From IMG/VR virus record IMGVR_UViG_3300036828_000073, positions 1 to 24,124 of that record: DNA of 24,124 bases; one strand, 5' to 3'. The notes below the pieces were generated by a model. It was given only the letters and a program-made list of their open reading frames with translations. It was not told where the DNA came from and made no database searches. The first letter of the stretch is position 1. Each line of letters starts with the position of its first letter. Positions 1-18,617 of the stretch are shown piece by piece. A program made the translations under genes and the position numbers. Source of the stretch: a virus.

Positions 1-542
1 CCCGGATTCTTGGCGTCGGTGCGCCGGGTTAGCTCCCGGCTGACCACCGCGGCGTCGCGCTCGGCTCCCTCAAACAGCATCTGCTTGAGCTTGCGTCTGG
101 CATATATGACTTTCAGGGTGTCTCTGGCGCTGCCTACGGCTGGATCCTGTTCCATCTGCGCCCGCACCCAGGTGACGGCTTCGGAGACCCTTTCGGGTTT
201 GTTGGCCGTCATGTAGAGGCCCTCCAGCTTGCGGACCTCGGCGTCGGCGTAACGCTCGCGGATGTCCTCGACCGCCATCTGGTTCTGGAAGAAGTCCGAC
301 CAGCGGGTCAACTGCACGAACAGGTTCATGAGTTGCTTATCGGTCAGGTCATCGAGGTCCTCGGCCAGCTTGGGCAGACCGAACTCTGGTTGCTCAGGCT
401 CGGCGATCCCCAGTTCGTGATAGACGTCGTACCGCACGCCGCTCACCGTTCTGGCCCACGCCGCCGTTTCGGCCAGACTCAGCGGCCTTTGCCGCGTCAA
501 CCGCCGTCGAGCGGTGGAGGAGGAGCTTCCGTTGTCGTTCAC
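1..542 (-). CDS. Hypothetical protein, truncated by the window edge (C-terminus missing)
   Basis: This minus-strand frame is open from a GTG at 542 to the left edge, giving 180 residues without a stop. The start is chosen because AAAGGA lies about six bases upstream of the GTG. The protein is helical and charged, with DDLTDKQLMNLFVQLTRWSD near residues 65-85 and ARRKLKQMLFEGAE near the visible end. I do not recognise a catalytic motif. It is the last visible gene of the recombination group, directly downstream of the Cas4-like nuclease. The nuclease frame runs 149 bp into it, and the tail of the nuclease looks like out-of-frame sequence there. A helper of recombination is possible from context only. 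Confidence 0.6.
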   Translation of the reverse strand, partial: MNDNGSSSSTARRRLTRQRPLSLAETAAWARTVSGVRYDVYHELGIAEPEQPEFGLPKLAEDLDDLTDKQLMNLFVQLTRWSDFFQNQMAVEDIRERYADAEVRKLEGLYMTANKPERVSEAVTWVRAQMEQDPAVGSARDTLKVIYARRKLKQMLFEGAERDAAVVSRELTRRTDAKNP

Positions 543-1458
543 CGCCAGTCCTTTCGTAGCGTTGGCAATCGGCGCAACCATCGAAGGGGCAGTCCGGGAT
601 CTTGCCGCCCTGGAGGGCCATGACGATCTGGCTGGCCCAATCCAACCGGTCGGCGATGCGCTCCTCCCGGTACTTGACCACCATCTCCTTGGTTCTCTGG
701 TTCCACTTGCATTCGTACAGGAAGATCTCATCCTTCGGTGCGCCCATGTAGCTGTACAGGTGCGCTTGGCGGATGTGTGAAGGGAAGGGCACTCGGATGG
801 AGTCCCATAGAGCGTCATAGTCCAGGAACTCGCGATTCTTCCCGTTGATGTTGAACTTGTGAGTGTGATCAGCGATCAGTCGTGGCGCTTCAAAACGCAG
901 GGTGTTCACACCAATCGACTTGATCTCGATCACCGCGCTGTCGCCGTCCAGGCCGTCGGCGTGCCCGGCCATCATCAGGCTGGGCCGGTGGAGGGGCACC
1001 TCGTCGTAGCGCAGGAACTGCCGCCCGGACCCGCACTCCTCGCAGTGGTCGGGAGAGGTGGCCCACCAGGCGTGCTTGCAGTTCATGCAGTAGTACACGC
1101 CTTTGAGTCGCCCTAGATTCCAAATCCGGCTCTGCCATTTGCGGTGGATCTCCTTGCCCTCATCGAAGATCATCCGCATCTGCCAGTGGGTCACCGGCCC
1201 CTCGGCGCTCGGCCTATGCCCGGCCAGGCGGTGGTAGCTAGCCCTCGGACACCATTCCGAATGCGACATCTCCGAAGGGTGCAGCACATCCTGCCGTCGC
1301 TCGGAGTCGTCGTCTCTGGTCAATAAGGCCCTTTGAATGTCGCCAAGGAGCCGGGTCTCGCGCTTGCTTGTTTCTAACAATGCGCGCAAGTTGGCGTCGA
1401 TCACGGGACGTCGCGGTGTTGATTGAGACGATCTTGCCTGCGTTGAGGGCCGCTTCAC
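394..1458 (-). CDS. Cas4/AddB-like PD-(D/E)XK exonuclease with Fe-S cysteines and an inserted zinc ribbon
   Basis: This is probably a DNA exonuclease acting on phage or host DNA ends. The core reads GHADG (D168) followed by IEIKS (E178, K180), the PD-(D/E)XK signature of the RecB/Cas4 family. One cysteine in LHPSEMSHSEWCPR (C70) and three near the C-terminus (C290, C295, C298) fit the four-cysteine iron-sulfur arrangement of Cas4 and AddB. An extra C-x2-C...C-x2-C ribbon (C124, C127, C139, C142) sits between the N-terminal helices and the catalytic strands. The GTG start overlaps the resolvase stop as GTGA. Recognisable sequence ends near residue 303; the last 50 residues overlap the next gene out of frame and look like shadow sequence. 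The N-terminal 70 residues overlap the WhiB frame. Confidence 0.85.
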   Translation of the reverse strand: MKRPSTQARSSQSTPRRPVIDANLRALLETSKRETRLLGDIQRALLTRDDDSERRQDVLHPSEMSHSEWCPRASYHRLAGHRPSAEGPVTHWQMRMIFDEGKEIHRKWQSRIWNLGRLKGVYYCMNCKHAWWATSPDHCEECGSGRQFLRYDEVPLHRPSLMMAGHADGLDGDSAVIEIKSIGVNTLRFEAPRLIADHTHKFNINGKNREFLDYDALWDSIRVPFPSHIRQAHLYSYMGAPKDEIFLYECKWNQRTKEMVVKYREERIADRLDWASQIVMALQGGKIPDCPFDGCADCQRYERTGGERQRKLLLHRSTAVDAAKAAESGRNGGVGQNGERRAVRRLSRTGDRRA

Positions 1459-1747
1459 GATGCCGTTCCCGTTTGATCCGGCGGCGCTCCCTTTCTGAAC
1501 ACCCGCCCCAAACGCCCCACTTCTCCCCGTTGTTCAGGGCGTAGTCGAGACACTGGTCGAGGACTGGGCACTGCCCTGGGAAATCCGGGTGAGTCCCCAG
1601 GCACACCGACTTGGCCTCGTTGACCTGGCCGTTGTGCTGATGGTCGGCGAAGAACAGGTTGGCGTTGTTGTGTCCACAGCTTCCGAGGCACTTGGCTTGG
1701 GTATACCAGTCGGGTCGTCGCCGCTCGTAGACCGGCGGCAGGGCCAT
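1238..1747 (-). CDS. WhiB-like regulator in a frame overlapping both neighbours
   Basis: The frame from ATG 1747 gives 169 aa. It carries clear WhiB features: C20 and/or C24, then AKSVC (C49), CPV with C60, C66, LDYAL, and the GVWGG turn at residues 78-82, followed by a basic ERERRRIKRER stretch. WhiB proteins hold a [4Fe-4S] cluster and bind the housekeeping sigma factor to alter transcription. The usual C-x2-C before PV is stretched here to C-x10-C by about eight extra residues (LGTHPDFPGQ). No good ribosome binding site precedes the ATG, so it may be reached by coupling or frameshifting from the resolvase. The frame covers the last 97 codons of the resolvase ORF, and its own last 73 codons overlap the nuclease start. 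The family call is firm; the gene limits are not. Confidence 0.75.
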   Translation of the reverse strand: MALPPVYERRRPDWYTQAKCLGSCGHNNANLFFADHQHNGQVNEAKSVCLGTHPDFPGQCPVLDQCLDYALNNGEKWGVWGGCSERERRRIKRERHREAALNAGKIVSINTATSRDRRQLARIVRNKQARDPAPWRHSKGLIDQRRRLRATAGCAAPFGDVAFGMVSEG

Positions 1748-2066
1748 AGCTACGTCTATGAGCAACCAGTTCGTGATAGTCGCTCTCGGTAAGGACCACG
1801 AAATGTTCTCCCGATAGCTCAAATCCGAGAACTGGGAGTCGAGACTCGACCAGCGCATGCCTGCGTAGTTGGCGGAGGTCGTCAAACTTGAGCGTGATGG
1901 AGCGTCGATTGTCGGTGCGCTTGAACTCGACCAGTTCCCACTCGGTGCGACCGTCGTGCTTCCGGTCCCATCTAGCACCTGATCGGGGGTTACGAGTTCC
2001 CCCAAATCGGTCCATGCCCTTCTGCTCTTGCCGCCTGGACCTCATCAGGCGGTCACCGACTGTCAC
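1455..2066 (-). CDS. Holliday-junction-resolvase-like PD-(D/E)XK endonuclease
   Basis: Residues 20-105 resemble small phage or archaeal Hjc-type resolvases. They show GGTRNPRSGARW with S29, then D38 and VEFKRT with E47 and K49, a helical DDLRQLRRHA segment and a closing strand FVVLTESDYHEL. The predicted role is cutting branched recombination or replication intermediates, which fits its place directly after recA. GTG 2066 overlaps the recA stop as GTGA. The domain seems complete by about residue 107. The remaining 96 residues are rich in Arg, Pro and Gly and lie over the WhiB coding sequence in another frame, so they may be a non-functional tail. The ORF nevertheless ends exactly in a GTGA overlap with the nuclease start. 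Confidence 0.75.
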   Translation of the reverse strand: MTVGDRLMRSRRQEQKGMDRFGGTRNPRSGARWDRKHDGRTEWELVEFKRTDNRRSITLKFDDLRQLRRHALVESRLPVLGFELSGEHFVVLTESDYHELVAHRRSYGPAAGLRAATTRLVYPSQVPRKLWTQQRQPVLRRPSAQRPGQRGQVGVPGDSPGFPRAVPSPRPVSRLRPEQRGEVGRLGRVFRKGAPPDQTGTAS

Positions 2067-3166
2067 TTCTTGGTCCTAGCCAATCGCCTGGCAGGACGTT
2101 TCTGTTCCTCGGGGCGCTTGCCCTTCGTCGCAACCTCTAGTACATCACTGCGTAACTTTTCCTGCAACGTTAGGTCCCACCTGACCTGCTCCTCCAGGGC
2201 CGAACGGCCATGCCAGGAATCCTCGCCCAGGTGGTAGTAGCCCCCTTTGACGTCGAGGATCTCGTAGTAGATGGCCAGGGTGACCACCTCTTTGGACGGG
2301 TCGTAGCTGCCGGGCGGGATGTGAAGCTCGTTGTGGTCGAAGTAGAAGTCGAAGCTGGCCACCCGCTCCGGTGGGTAGCTCTTGTTCTTTTTTGTCAGGC
2401 ACTTGATGGCGATGCCGACCTTGCGCTGGCTGCGTTTCTCCCCCTCGGTGAGCCAGTCGTCGCGCTTCAGTTCGACCCTGGTGTTGTACCAGTAGTTCTT
2501 GGCCCGGCCCCCAGGGGTGGTGCGCGGATCGCCAAACATGATGCCGATCTTTTCCCGCCACTGGTTGACCATGAAGCAGGTGACCGGACGGTCGGTCTCT
2601 ACCAGGGACCGCTTCATGGCTGTGTACGCCTTGCGGAAAAACTTGCCCATGAGCCGGGCCACCTGACCCACCTGCTGGTCGTCCATGGTCCCCTCGGTCT
2701 CGGTGACCGGCGAGAGAGCCGGGAGGCTGTCGATAACCAGAGCATCGACGCTCCTACTTTCTAGAACCCTCACCGCGGCGTTGGTGGCCTCCTCCAGGAT
2801 GTTGGTCTGCATGACCACGATCCGGCCTGGGTCACAGCCGAGGGCCTGTGCCCACTCCGGCACGAACTCCTCCGCCGCGATCCAGAACACGGTCCACTTC
2901 GGATCTCGCGCCTGCTGGGTGGCGATGGTCTTCAAGATGATGGTGGTCTTGCCGGAGGACTCGTCACCGTAGATCTCGTGCCAGGCGTTGACTGTCCAGC
3001 CCCCGCCTAGGGCGGTGTCGAGCGCCAGAGAGCCAGAGGAGATCCGAGGGATGTCGGAGAAGCGGATCTGACTGCCCCAGACCACAGTCTCCGGGCCGTA
3101 CTCAGCGTTAATCTCTGCCATCACCTCTAGGACCGCCTTGTGTTGGTCCGGGGGTGGCCTGGTCAT
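2063..3166 (-). CDS. recA: RecA-family recombinase
   Basis: A 367-aa protein with the full RecA ATPase core. Walker A is GDESSGKTT at residues 67-75, preceded by LDTALGGGW, and Walker B is ALVIDSLPAL. The segment VNQWREKIGIMFGDP, followed by TTPGG, matches the loop and switch region of bacterial RecA, which supports RecA over RadA or RecA-like helicases. It would coat single-stranded DNA and drive strand exchange for phage recombination and repair. ATG 3166 overlaps the upstream stop as ATGA, and its stop overlaps the resolvase start as GTGA, so the three genes are translationally coupled. The C-terminal tail (RPEEQKRPARRLARTKK) is basic, unlike the acidic tail of E. coli RecA. Confidence 0.93.
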   Translation of the reverse strand: MTRPPPDQHKAVLEVMAEINAEYGPETVVWGSQIRFSDIPRISSGSLALDTALGGGWTVNAWHEIYGDESSGKTTIILKTIATQQARDPKWTVFWIAAEEFVPEWAQALGCDPGRIVVMQTNILEEATNAAVRVLESRSVDALVIDSLPALSPVTETEGTMDDQQVGQVARLMGKFFRKAYTAMKRSLVETDRPVTCFMVNQWREKIGIMFGDPRTTPGGRAKNYWYNTRVELKRDDWLTEGEKRSQRKVGIAIKCLTKKNKSYPPERVASFDFYFDHNELHIPPGSYDPSKEVVTLAIYYEILDVKGGYYHLGEDSWHGRSALEEQVRWDLTLQEKLRSDVLEVATKGKRPEEQKRPARRLARTKK

Positions 3167-16793: not shown

Positions 16794-17395
16794 CGGTAGT
16801 CGGTCCCGTCCACCCAGATGATCTCGGTGGCCTCCATGAGCAAGCTGGTCAAGCCCACGGTGTAACGCTCGTCCAGTTCCTCAAAGCTCTTGTTGGTGGT
16901 GACCAGGCTGGGCAGTCCCCGGTCGTATCGACTCTTGATGGTGTCGAAGAACTCGTTCTGGGACCAGCCCGACTCGGACTGGAACTCCCGGCCCACGTCA
17001 TCGAAGAGCACGAAGTCGGTGCTCCGCTTCGACACCCCTTTGATGATGCGGATGTGCTGGCGGGCCTTGATGTACTCGTCTTCGATCTCCTCGTTGCCGC
17101 CGCGCAGGGAGTGCGAGAGACCGAACATGTCCTTGTGTAGCCCGACGTAAGTCGATAGCTCGATGGCCTCGATGCGGTAGCCCCGCCCCTGGGCCTCGTT
17201 TAACACGATGCTGGCCAGCAGGGTCTTGCCCACACCAGTGGGGCCGAGGAACATTAGTCCCCTGCCGCGAAGACGGTTGTCGTCCAGGTTGGTGAGGTAC
17301 CCCTTGATTATCTCGGCGGGGATCTCTTGCTTCTCGTTGAAGACCTGGAAGTTGTTGATCGTCTTGTCCCGGAAGGGGGCGAAGGTCGTTCTCAC
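16775..17395 (-). CDS. DnaC/IstB-like helicase-loader ATPase
   Basis: A 206-aa AAA+ protein. Walker A is GPTGVGKT (51-58), Walker B is FVLFDDVG (about residues 128-135), and sensor I is SLVTTNKS. The short N-terminal part before the P-loop and the GRGLMFLGPTGVGK lead-in match DnaC-like loaders. It would place the downstream DnaB-type helicase on the origin. GTG 17395 overlaps the WhiB-like stop as GTGA and has a very good AGGAGG five bases upstream. Sequence after sensor I includes RYTVGLTSLLMEATEIIWVD. Confidence 0.88.
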   Translation of the reverse strand: MRTTFAPFRDKTINNFQVFNEKQEIPAEIIKGYLTNLDDNRLRGRGLMFLGPTGVGKTLLASIVLNEAQGRGYRIEAIELSTYVGLHKDMFGLSHSLRGGNEEIEDEYIKARQHIRIIKGVSKRSTDFVLFDDVGREFQSESGWSQNEFFDTIKSRYDRGLPSLVTTNKSFEELDERYTVGLTSLLMEATEIIWVDGTDYRWKKGS

Positions 17396-17784
17396 AGTTC
17401 CTCCTCTGGTAGGCGGCGCTTATGGACACCCTGACGTGCCCGCTTGCGGGCCGCGGCCTTGGCCGCGTTCTGAGCGAAGTTGAAATCTCTGCGTGGGTCG
17501 GCGTACTTCTCCCGGCCCTCAGCGATCCGGTGCCGTCGGTCGGCGGTCATCATGGCGAAGATCCCGTACTCCAACTCGCGGTCGTGAGCCAGGGACCAGC
17601 GGGTGCAGGCCCGGAACAGTGGGCAGGTGGCGCACAGTCTCTTGGCCATCTGCTGTTCGACCAGATCGTCACTGAAGAAGAGCCACGCCACCCCCTTCCA
17701 CTTGATGCAGTTGCGTCGCGGGTCGCTCAGGAAATCCTCACTGGGTGGCCGCTCGCCGCCGTAGAGCCAGAGTGGTGTGGTCAT
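17392..17784 (-). CDS. WhiB-like transcription regulator
   Basis: A 130-aa WhiB-family protein. The four cluster cysteines are C26, C51, C54 and C60 (C-x24-C-x2-C-x5-C), with WLFFSDD before the CATCPLFRAC core. The usual GVWGG turn appears as YGIFAMM. A basic Ala/Lys/Arg C-terminus follows. WhiB proteins bind a [4Fe-4S] cluster and the host sigma factor; phage copies such as TM4 WhiB are known to interfere with host WhiB2. ATG 17784 is fixed by GGGAGGAG just upstream. It lies second in the leftward operon and overlaps both neighbours by 4 bp. Confidence 0.9.
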   Translation of the reverse strand: MTTPLWLYGGERPPSEDFLSDPRRNCIKWKGVAWLFFSDDLVEQQMAKRLCATCPLFRACTRWSLAHDRELEYGIFAMMTADRRHRIAEGREKYADPRRDFNFAQNAAKAAARKRARQGVHKRRLPEEEL

Positions 17785-18617
17785 GGTCTCCTCCCTAACC
17801 AATACTCTGCATCCCCCATGTGACGGTCTCGGGTGGGCGGCTGGCTGATCCAGTAGTCACGGCCCCGGCGGCGGTTGTCGGGGTTCTTCTTCCGCTGGGC
17901 GTGGACCAGCTTTATGAGTTCTTCTCGCCGAGAGATGAACACTTGCCAGGCTGGGCGTCGTGATCGTCGGCACCACAGCGGATGCTTGACGAACTCCAGC
18001 ATCATCAGCCGGATGAATGGTGTGTCTATCTGGTAGTCCCACTCCAGCTTCTTGACCTGGCTGCACAACGCTTGCCAGTACATGTTTCTGGGGATGGTCT
18101 CCAGGTCATGGTTCTCAACCAGGCTCGGGAAGAAATCTCTGCACAGTTTCACTCGTGGTCCAGATGGTCTGAAGGCAGGTTGAACTGCATTTTGGGCAGA
18201 CCCCTCCATTCCCCCAAGAGCTTCGTAGCTAGCTATCATTCGGCTCGCTGCGCTCGCCTCACCGAAAACCGGAGAGTTCGCGTCCTCGGCATCCAGTCGC
18301 TGCGCGACTAGACTGCCTCCTTCGCGCCCGGCTGCGCCGGGGTGTGCGGAAATCTCTGGGGAAAGTTGTTTTTCGACTAGGAGTCGAAACCCTCCGTCCA
18401 CCCTCTCCACGGCGTCCGAATCAAGCAGGCCCTGTACGACATCCGAGGCTTGGCGGATGCCAAGTCCTCGACCGCGGCTGACAAGGTTGTCTAGGTCGGC
18501 CCGATCCCCCAGCCAGGTCCCTGACCTGCGCCTTCTGAACACCTGAGTCACGAACCCGTGGACGTCATCGAAGATGGCATCCGAACCAGGGCCGCGTAGT
18601 CTCAACCCTTCGTCCAT
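17781..18617 (-). CDS. Putative replication initiator: winged-helix protein opening the leftward operon
   Basis: A 278-aa protein. Residues 10-75 suggest a wHTH: FDDVHGFVTQVFRRRRSGTW, LVSRGRGLGIRQASDVVQGL followed by LDSDAVERV. Residues 85-150 are a low-complexity linker whose DNA holds several small hairpins. The C-terminal part (RNMYWQALCSQVKKLEWDYQ, FIRLMMLEFVKHPLW, then a basic helix) is not a family I can name. Being first before a loader, helicase and primase, it resembles the position of lambda O-type initiators; this is an inference from order. ATG 18617 has AAGGGG eight bases upstream; GTG 18641 is less likely. Its stop overlaps the WhiB-like start as ATGA. Confidence 0.62.
   Translation of the reverse strand: MDEGLRLRGPGSDAIFDDVHGFVTQVFRRRRSGTWLGDRADLDNLVSRGRGLGIRQASDVVQGLLDSDAVERVDGGFRLLVEKQLSPEISAHPGAAGREGGSLVAQRLDAEDANSPVFGEASAASRMIASYEALGGMEGSAQNAVQPAFRPSGPRVKLCRDFFPSLVENHDLETIPRNMYWQALCSQVKKLEWDYQIDTPFIRLMMLEFVKHPLWCRRSRRPAWQVFISRREELIKLVHAQRKKNPDNRRRGRDYWISQPPTRDRHMGDAEYWLGRRP
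18239..18341. repeat. Cluster of short TGC-loop inverted repeats in the initiator gene
   Basis: AGTCGC-TGC-GCGACT (18295-18309) and CCCGGC-TGC-GCCGGG (18327-18341) are perfect 6-bp stems with the same TGC loop. A third GCTGCGC lies near 18248-18254, between TTCGG (18239-18243) and CCGAA (18262-18266). They fall in the low-complexity linker of the putative initiator. Possible origin or RNA structure. Confidence 0.4.

Follow-up and report, generated by a model that had tools for sequence, protein, structure and literature searches.

Gene Content and Organization of the Locus

The virus record IMGVR_UViG_3300036828_000073, analyzed here over its full 24,124 bases (the window), carries a recA gene, a resolvase gene, a WhiB frame, and a nuclease gene consecutively on its minus strand (Table 1). 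The TGA of recA overlaps the GTG of the resolvase gene as GTGA, and the resolvase frame crosses the WhiB domain before it reaches its own TGA at 1457-1455. The initial annotation had placed the resolvase gene at 2066-1455, with a GTGA shared with the nuclease start, and had followed the open WhiB frame to 1238, a position inside the nuclease gene; all of these assignments were confirmed. Its figures for the overlaps, 293 bp and 221 bp, hold provided that WhiB starts at 1747. That start is too far downstream: because the WhiB frame is open beyond 1747, up to a TTG at 2005, its overlap with the resolvase gene amounts to 551 bp. So delimited, the frame measures 768 bp and is overlapped throughout, by the resolvase gene (551 bp), the nuclease gene (221 bp), or both (4 bp). 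The WhiB gene is predicted, on this reading, to lie wholly within the ends of its two neighbors, with each stretch of its DNA read in two frames.

Table 1. Features of the recA-resolvase-WhiB-nuclease block in the window.
Feature	Position	Strand	Evidence or remark
recA/UvsX-like recombinase gene	2063..3166	-	Pfam RecA, E 2.6e-52
Holliday-junction-resolvase-like gene	1455..2066	-	PHROG_2002, E 1.5e-11, residues 8-105
WhiB-like gene, from candidate start TTG 2005, 255 aa	1238..2005	-	Pfam Whib, E 3.8e-16
Probable WhiB start TTG	2003..2005	-	SD-like AGAAGGG at 2023-2017
WhiB domain	about 1750-1440	-	Preceded by an N-terminal extension lying over resolvase codons and followed by a C-terminal one over nuclease codons
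GTGA (nuclease GTG start and resolvase TGA stop)	1455..1458	-	24/24 loci
Cas4/RecB-type exonuclease gene	394..1458	-	phrog_2506, E 6.5e-24

The folded part of the resolvase comprises residues 1 to about 105 (2066 to ~1750) and is followed by a tail (residues ~105-203) that lies over the WhiB domain. The PHROG_2002 match, which identifies the protein as a phage Holliday junction resolvase, is confined to the core domain; a Pfam search with the resolvase gave no match, and a PDB search with the resolvase profile found nothing. In the structural model, which is of low confidence (pLDDT 45), the sole structure predicted past residue 102 is one short helix. The nuclease matches phage exonuclease families, with phrog_2506 assigning it to the Cas4/RecB-type phage exonucleases, and Cas4 models match it weakly, below the cut-off. 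At its 3' end (394-560), the nuclease gene in turn shares DNA with the following gene (conserved, DDLTDKQLMNLFVQLTRW...), which is read in another frame, and synonymous changes in the nuclease are also low over this overlap (ratio 0.66, P = 3e-4).

Conservation of the Arrangement in Related Loci

Scans of viral contigs yielded 24 relatives with the complete arrangement, or 25 loci counting the window; because two of the 25 are near-duplicates, 24 loci (window included) were used for comparison. Alignment of these homologous loci, a check proposed in the initial annotation, showed that the block recurs with equally long overlaps at about 50-80% protein identity, and that gene order and relative frames are identical throughout. 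In every locus the WhiB frame is without a stop between resolvase codon ~24 and nuclease codon 59, and the resolvase frame is without one up to the GTGA of the nuclease start; upstream of that start, the nuclease frame contains many stops. A megablast search of the region against a phage collection gave no match, and a pattern scan of genome contigs returned 47 matches, none of them a relative. The arrangement belongs to a family of uncultured soil phages.

Among the options raised by the initial annotation, three genes sharing DNA in three frames is supported. Another option, indels in the assembly that fused separate frames, is ruled out because divergent loci from many metagenomes, 24 in all, show the same frames and overlaps, and we assign it next to no probability.

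Avoidance of Stop Codons in the Overlaps

To set an expectation for stops, synonymous codons were resampled with each locus's own codon usage. The resolvase tail should then contain 1.4-5.4 stops per locus and the first 59 nuclease codons 1.1-3.1; in both segments, 0 were found in any locus. Over the resolvase tail, none of the 483 at-risk WhiB codons, those able to create a stop in the second frame, ends in T, compared with 153 of the 1,406 other codons of the segment. Nuclease codons 1-59 follow the same pattern (0/264 at-risk codons ending in T versus 132/773 others), and the avoidance is gone in codons 60-90 (25/122 versus 52/454). recA, which served as a control, shows no avoidance of stop-creating codons.

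Where the WhiB frame runs over the resolvase gene, A is never the last base of an at-risk Leu/Ile/Val codon (0/200 versus 29/176). The L/V G3-before-A test was not significant over the whole resolvase core and gave 0/32 versus 38/297 (P = 0.036) over its last 82 codons. When changes were counted by parsimony on the tree, so that relatedness was included, WhiB over the resolvase tail showed 1 change against 20.0 expected (P = 4.3e-8), nuclease codons 1-59 showed 0 against 6.6 (P = 1.3e-3), and the WhiB frame over the resolvase gene, with few columns, showed 0 against 10.7 (P = 2.3e-5). Judged from these codon patterns, selection has kept the long overlaps free of stops.

The open tails might instead be a chance shadow of GC-rich coding sequence, maintained without selection. 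The composition of the resolvase tail, which equals the expectation from random synonymous WhiB codons, agrees with such an origin; the stops expected in each locus and found in none of the 24, together with the avoidance of T in at-risk codons, do not. We consider a chance shadow very improbable: the avoidance tests refute it, unless an unrecognized nucleotide-level bias is confined to this segment.

Synonymous Rates and Residue Constraint

Synonymous rates in the resolvase frame are normal to about codon 62 (columns 25-62 included), drop to 0.56 of the expected changes in columns 63-104 (P = 5e-5), and then collapse where the WhiB domain begins. A ratio of 0.41 in columns 76-88 is not relied on, as this interval was picked after the data had been seen. 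The WhiB frame is near normal over its domain (ratio 0.89, P = 0.027), and the nuclease is normal from its first codon except in columns 32-48 (ratio 0.59, P = 1.5e-4). Synonymous sites are also frozen in nuclease columns 89-106 (about 1200-1145, around RMIFDEGKEIH; ratio 0.42), where no overlapping gene is known. Because these columns are equally low, we treat synonymous deficits as weaker evidence than stop avoidance.

The initial annotation had taken the overlapping tails for shadow sequence. For the resolvase tail, with its random composition, this description stands, and residue-level constraint there is almost absent. It fails in part for the WhiB ends, both of which deviate from random synonymous composition and each of which carries one short conserved WhiB-frame motif over the neighboring gene. 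W52, F59, and P220-W221 are invariant, and L62 is kept in all or nearly all loci; such residues are fixed through rare codons of the neighbors, for example Leu CTT and Phe TTT. All of the 24 loci hold P220-W221 by using Leu CTT (5% usage), and the C-terminal motif PW-x-x-SK-x-LI is dual-coded with nuclease alignment columns 32-48. These patterns argue for some dual-coding constraint on the WhiB extensions. At the WhiB ends, stop avoidance and the synonymous deficit together indicate that both frames are under selection; in the resolvase tail, the signature of dual coding is limited to stop avoidance.

The WhiB Protein

The Pfam Whib match covers residues 14-90 of the 1747-1238 reading, and a search of the PDB with the WhiB profile returned WhiB matches (E 1.8e-15). 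GVWGG is unchanged in 24 of 24 loci, as the family profile demands, and the alignment contains the four invariant cysteines of the WhiB family (C106, C135, C146, and C152); in the near-duplicate locus L005, Arg replaces the first of them. The four conserved cysteines presumably bind an Fe-S cluster. Their spacing at 1603-1550 is C-x10-C-x5-C in 24 of 24 loci, the usual spacing in WhiB proteins being C-x2-C-x5-C. The predicted structure of the full WhiB protein is of low confidence (pLDDT 41). A second WhiB-like ORF is present in the same record at 17392-17790 (Pfam Whib, E 4.3e-9).

Translation Starts and Alternative Routes to WhiB

In 21 of 24 loci, a TTG preceded by an SD-like AAGGGG heads the stop-free WhiB stretch. 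The predicted duplex with the anti-SD averages -7.2 kcal/mol over the 24 loci against a background of -2.4 kcal/mol, the strongest of the sites tested, although the SD-like AGAAGGG lies over resolvase Lys-Gly residues whose conservation forces part of the motif in any case. The TTG is absent from three of the 24 loci, and in L008 the first standard start lies well downstream. We infer that the TTG at 2005 is the best candidate for the WhiB start; a GTG at resolvase column 34 was rejected, as it has no SD-like site. At the nuclease start, GTG precedes an A in 24 of 24 loci, and the WhiB frame reads this GTGA as part of Arg-Glu/Asp codons. The SD-like site of the nuclease is weak (-3.6 kcal/mol), which agrees with a start that is coupled to the resolvase stop.

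Translation of WhiB could alternatively begin at 1747 or in its vicinity, perhaps from a non-standard codon, with the upstream frame untranslated. An ATG is present at 1747 in the window, the domain proper begins about there, and the normal synonymous rates of resolvase columns 25-62 fit an untranslated upstream frame. Yet many loci have no conserved start codon at this position, stops are avoided upstream of it, and a W and an F/L upstream of the domain are conserved in the WhiB frame through unusual resolvase codons, all of which make a start at 1747 unlikely.

The third option of the initial annotation, a programmed frameshift, would in its +1 form fuse resolvase to WhiB near the conserved TATCACGAACTGGTT. 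At this motif, coding constraint does pass abruptly from the resolvase frame to that of WhiB, and several loci (L015, L022, L027, L035, and L057 among them) have no ATG, GTG, or TTG near the WhiB domain. However, TATCACGAACTGGTT is mostly dictated by the resolvase residues YHELV and is missing in L049, and no slippery codon pair is conserved. In a frameshifted gene, the second frame is needed only past a conserved shift site; the WhiB frame is stop-free, and partly constrained in its residues, for about 80 codons upstream of TATCACGAACTGGTT. A frameshift at the junction is disfavored because it would not need the WhiB frame to be open upstream, and we hold it to be improbable. A frameshift far earlier, near resolvase codon 24, is possible. 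A +1 shift at CACGAACTGGTT, considered at first, was abandoned in view of the stop avoidance upstream.

Relatives with Other Arrangements

In the contig L033 and in the Streptomyces phages BRock, LuckySocke, and GiJojo, the same genes lie end to end or overlap shortly. The three Streptomyces phages resemble the window in having resolvase, WhiB, and Cas4 exonuclease genes in the same order and orientation, at about 35-46% identity; they differ in that their genes, as annotated, abut or share a few tens of bases, no whole gene is overlapped, and WhiB is without long extensions. Two further loci (L066, 3875-5353; L121, 3581-5050) encode the WhiB domain and the Cas4-type nuclease as one fusion in a single open frame. 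Such fusions hint at an Fe-S domain of WhiB that may act with the nuclease, not as a transcription factor.

Because some relatives have end-to-end genes and two others an in-frame WhiB-nuclease fusion, the long double overlap looks derived within this clade; probably the resolvase and WhiB genes lost their stops, and WhiB acquired a start farther upstream. The initial annotation had held that homologs with simple end-to-end genes would speak against gene sharing; such homologs do exist, in distant relatives only and apparently as the ancestral state, and the 24 loci keep the long overlaps.

Discussion

We consider it likely that three same-strand genes in three frames are each translated from their own start. 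The resolvase would be coupled to recA through GTGA, and WhiB would start within the resolvase gene, with TTG 2005 the best candidate, and be overlapped over its full length. Because the nuclease GTG overlaps the stop that ends resolvase-frame translation, the most likely role of the stop-free resolvase tail is to carry ribosomes to the nuclease start by translational coupling; WhiB, for its part, would have gained its N- and C-terminal extensions by overprinting its neighbors. More tentatively, and at somewhat less than even probability, we propose that the unconstrained tail of ~95 codons has been selected only for ribosome transit through WhiB, and that WhiB grew new functional segments at both ends.

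Same-strand nested or overlapping genes are known from phages, as in lambda Rz/Rz1 and phiX174 D/E and A/B/K. There, as in the window, one stretch of DNA codes in two frames and genes have been overprinted; the window differs in that two different neighbors together cover the entire length of a conserved gene for a cellular-type domain, and in that one of the overlapping tails is stop-free without residue constraint. GTGA and ATGA stop-start overlaps accompany translational coupling, and the recA/resolvase and resolvase/nuclease junctions are both GTGA. Unlike such coupled genes, the resolvase arrives at the nuclease start by way of a tail, about 95 codons long, that crosses another gene. We interpret the arrangement as a natural, selected long overlap that is of a known kind and unusual in form.

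Long same-strand overlaps in large DNA phages are easily taken for annotation error, and gene callers that bar long overlaps would shorten or overlook the WhiB protein. A survey gave 185 nt as the largest overlap common to different virus families (PMC7017920). The overlaps of 551 and 221 bp are common to phages with protein identities down to about 50%, and the relatives with plain and fused genes provide reference states. In an actinobacteriophage cluster, a WhiB gene lies within 10 kb of a Cas4-family exonuclease gene, a matter of genomic context only, and the part of that report consulted mentions no gene overlap, unlike the window (PMC8612146). The conserved cysteines suggest that WhiB in these phages is an Fe-S protein that may work with the surrounding recombination genes, and the locus offers a testable case in which coupling and overprinting would hold a frame open without fixing its residues.
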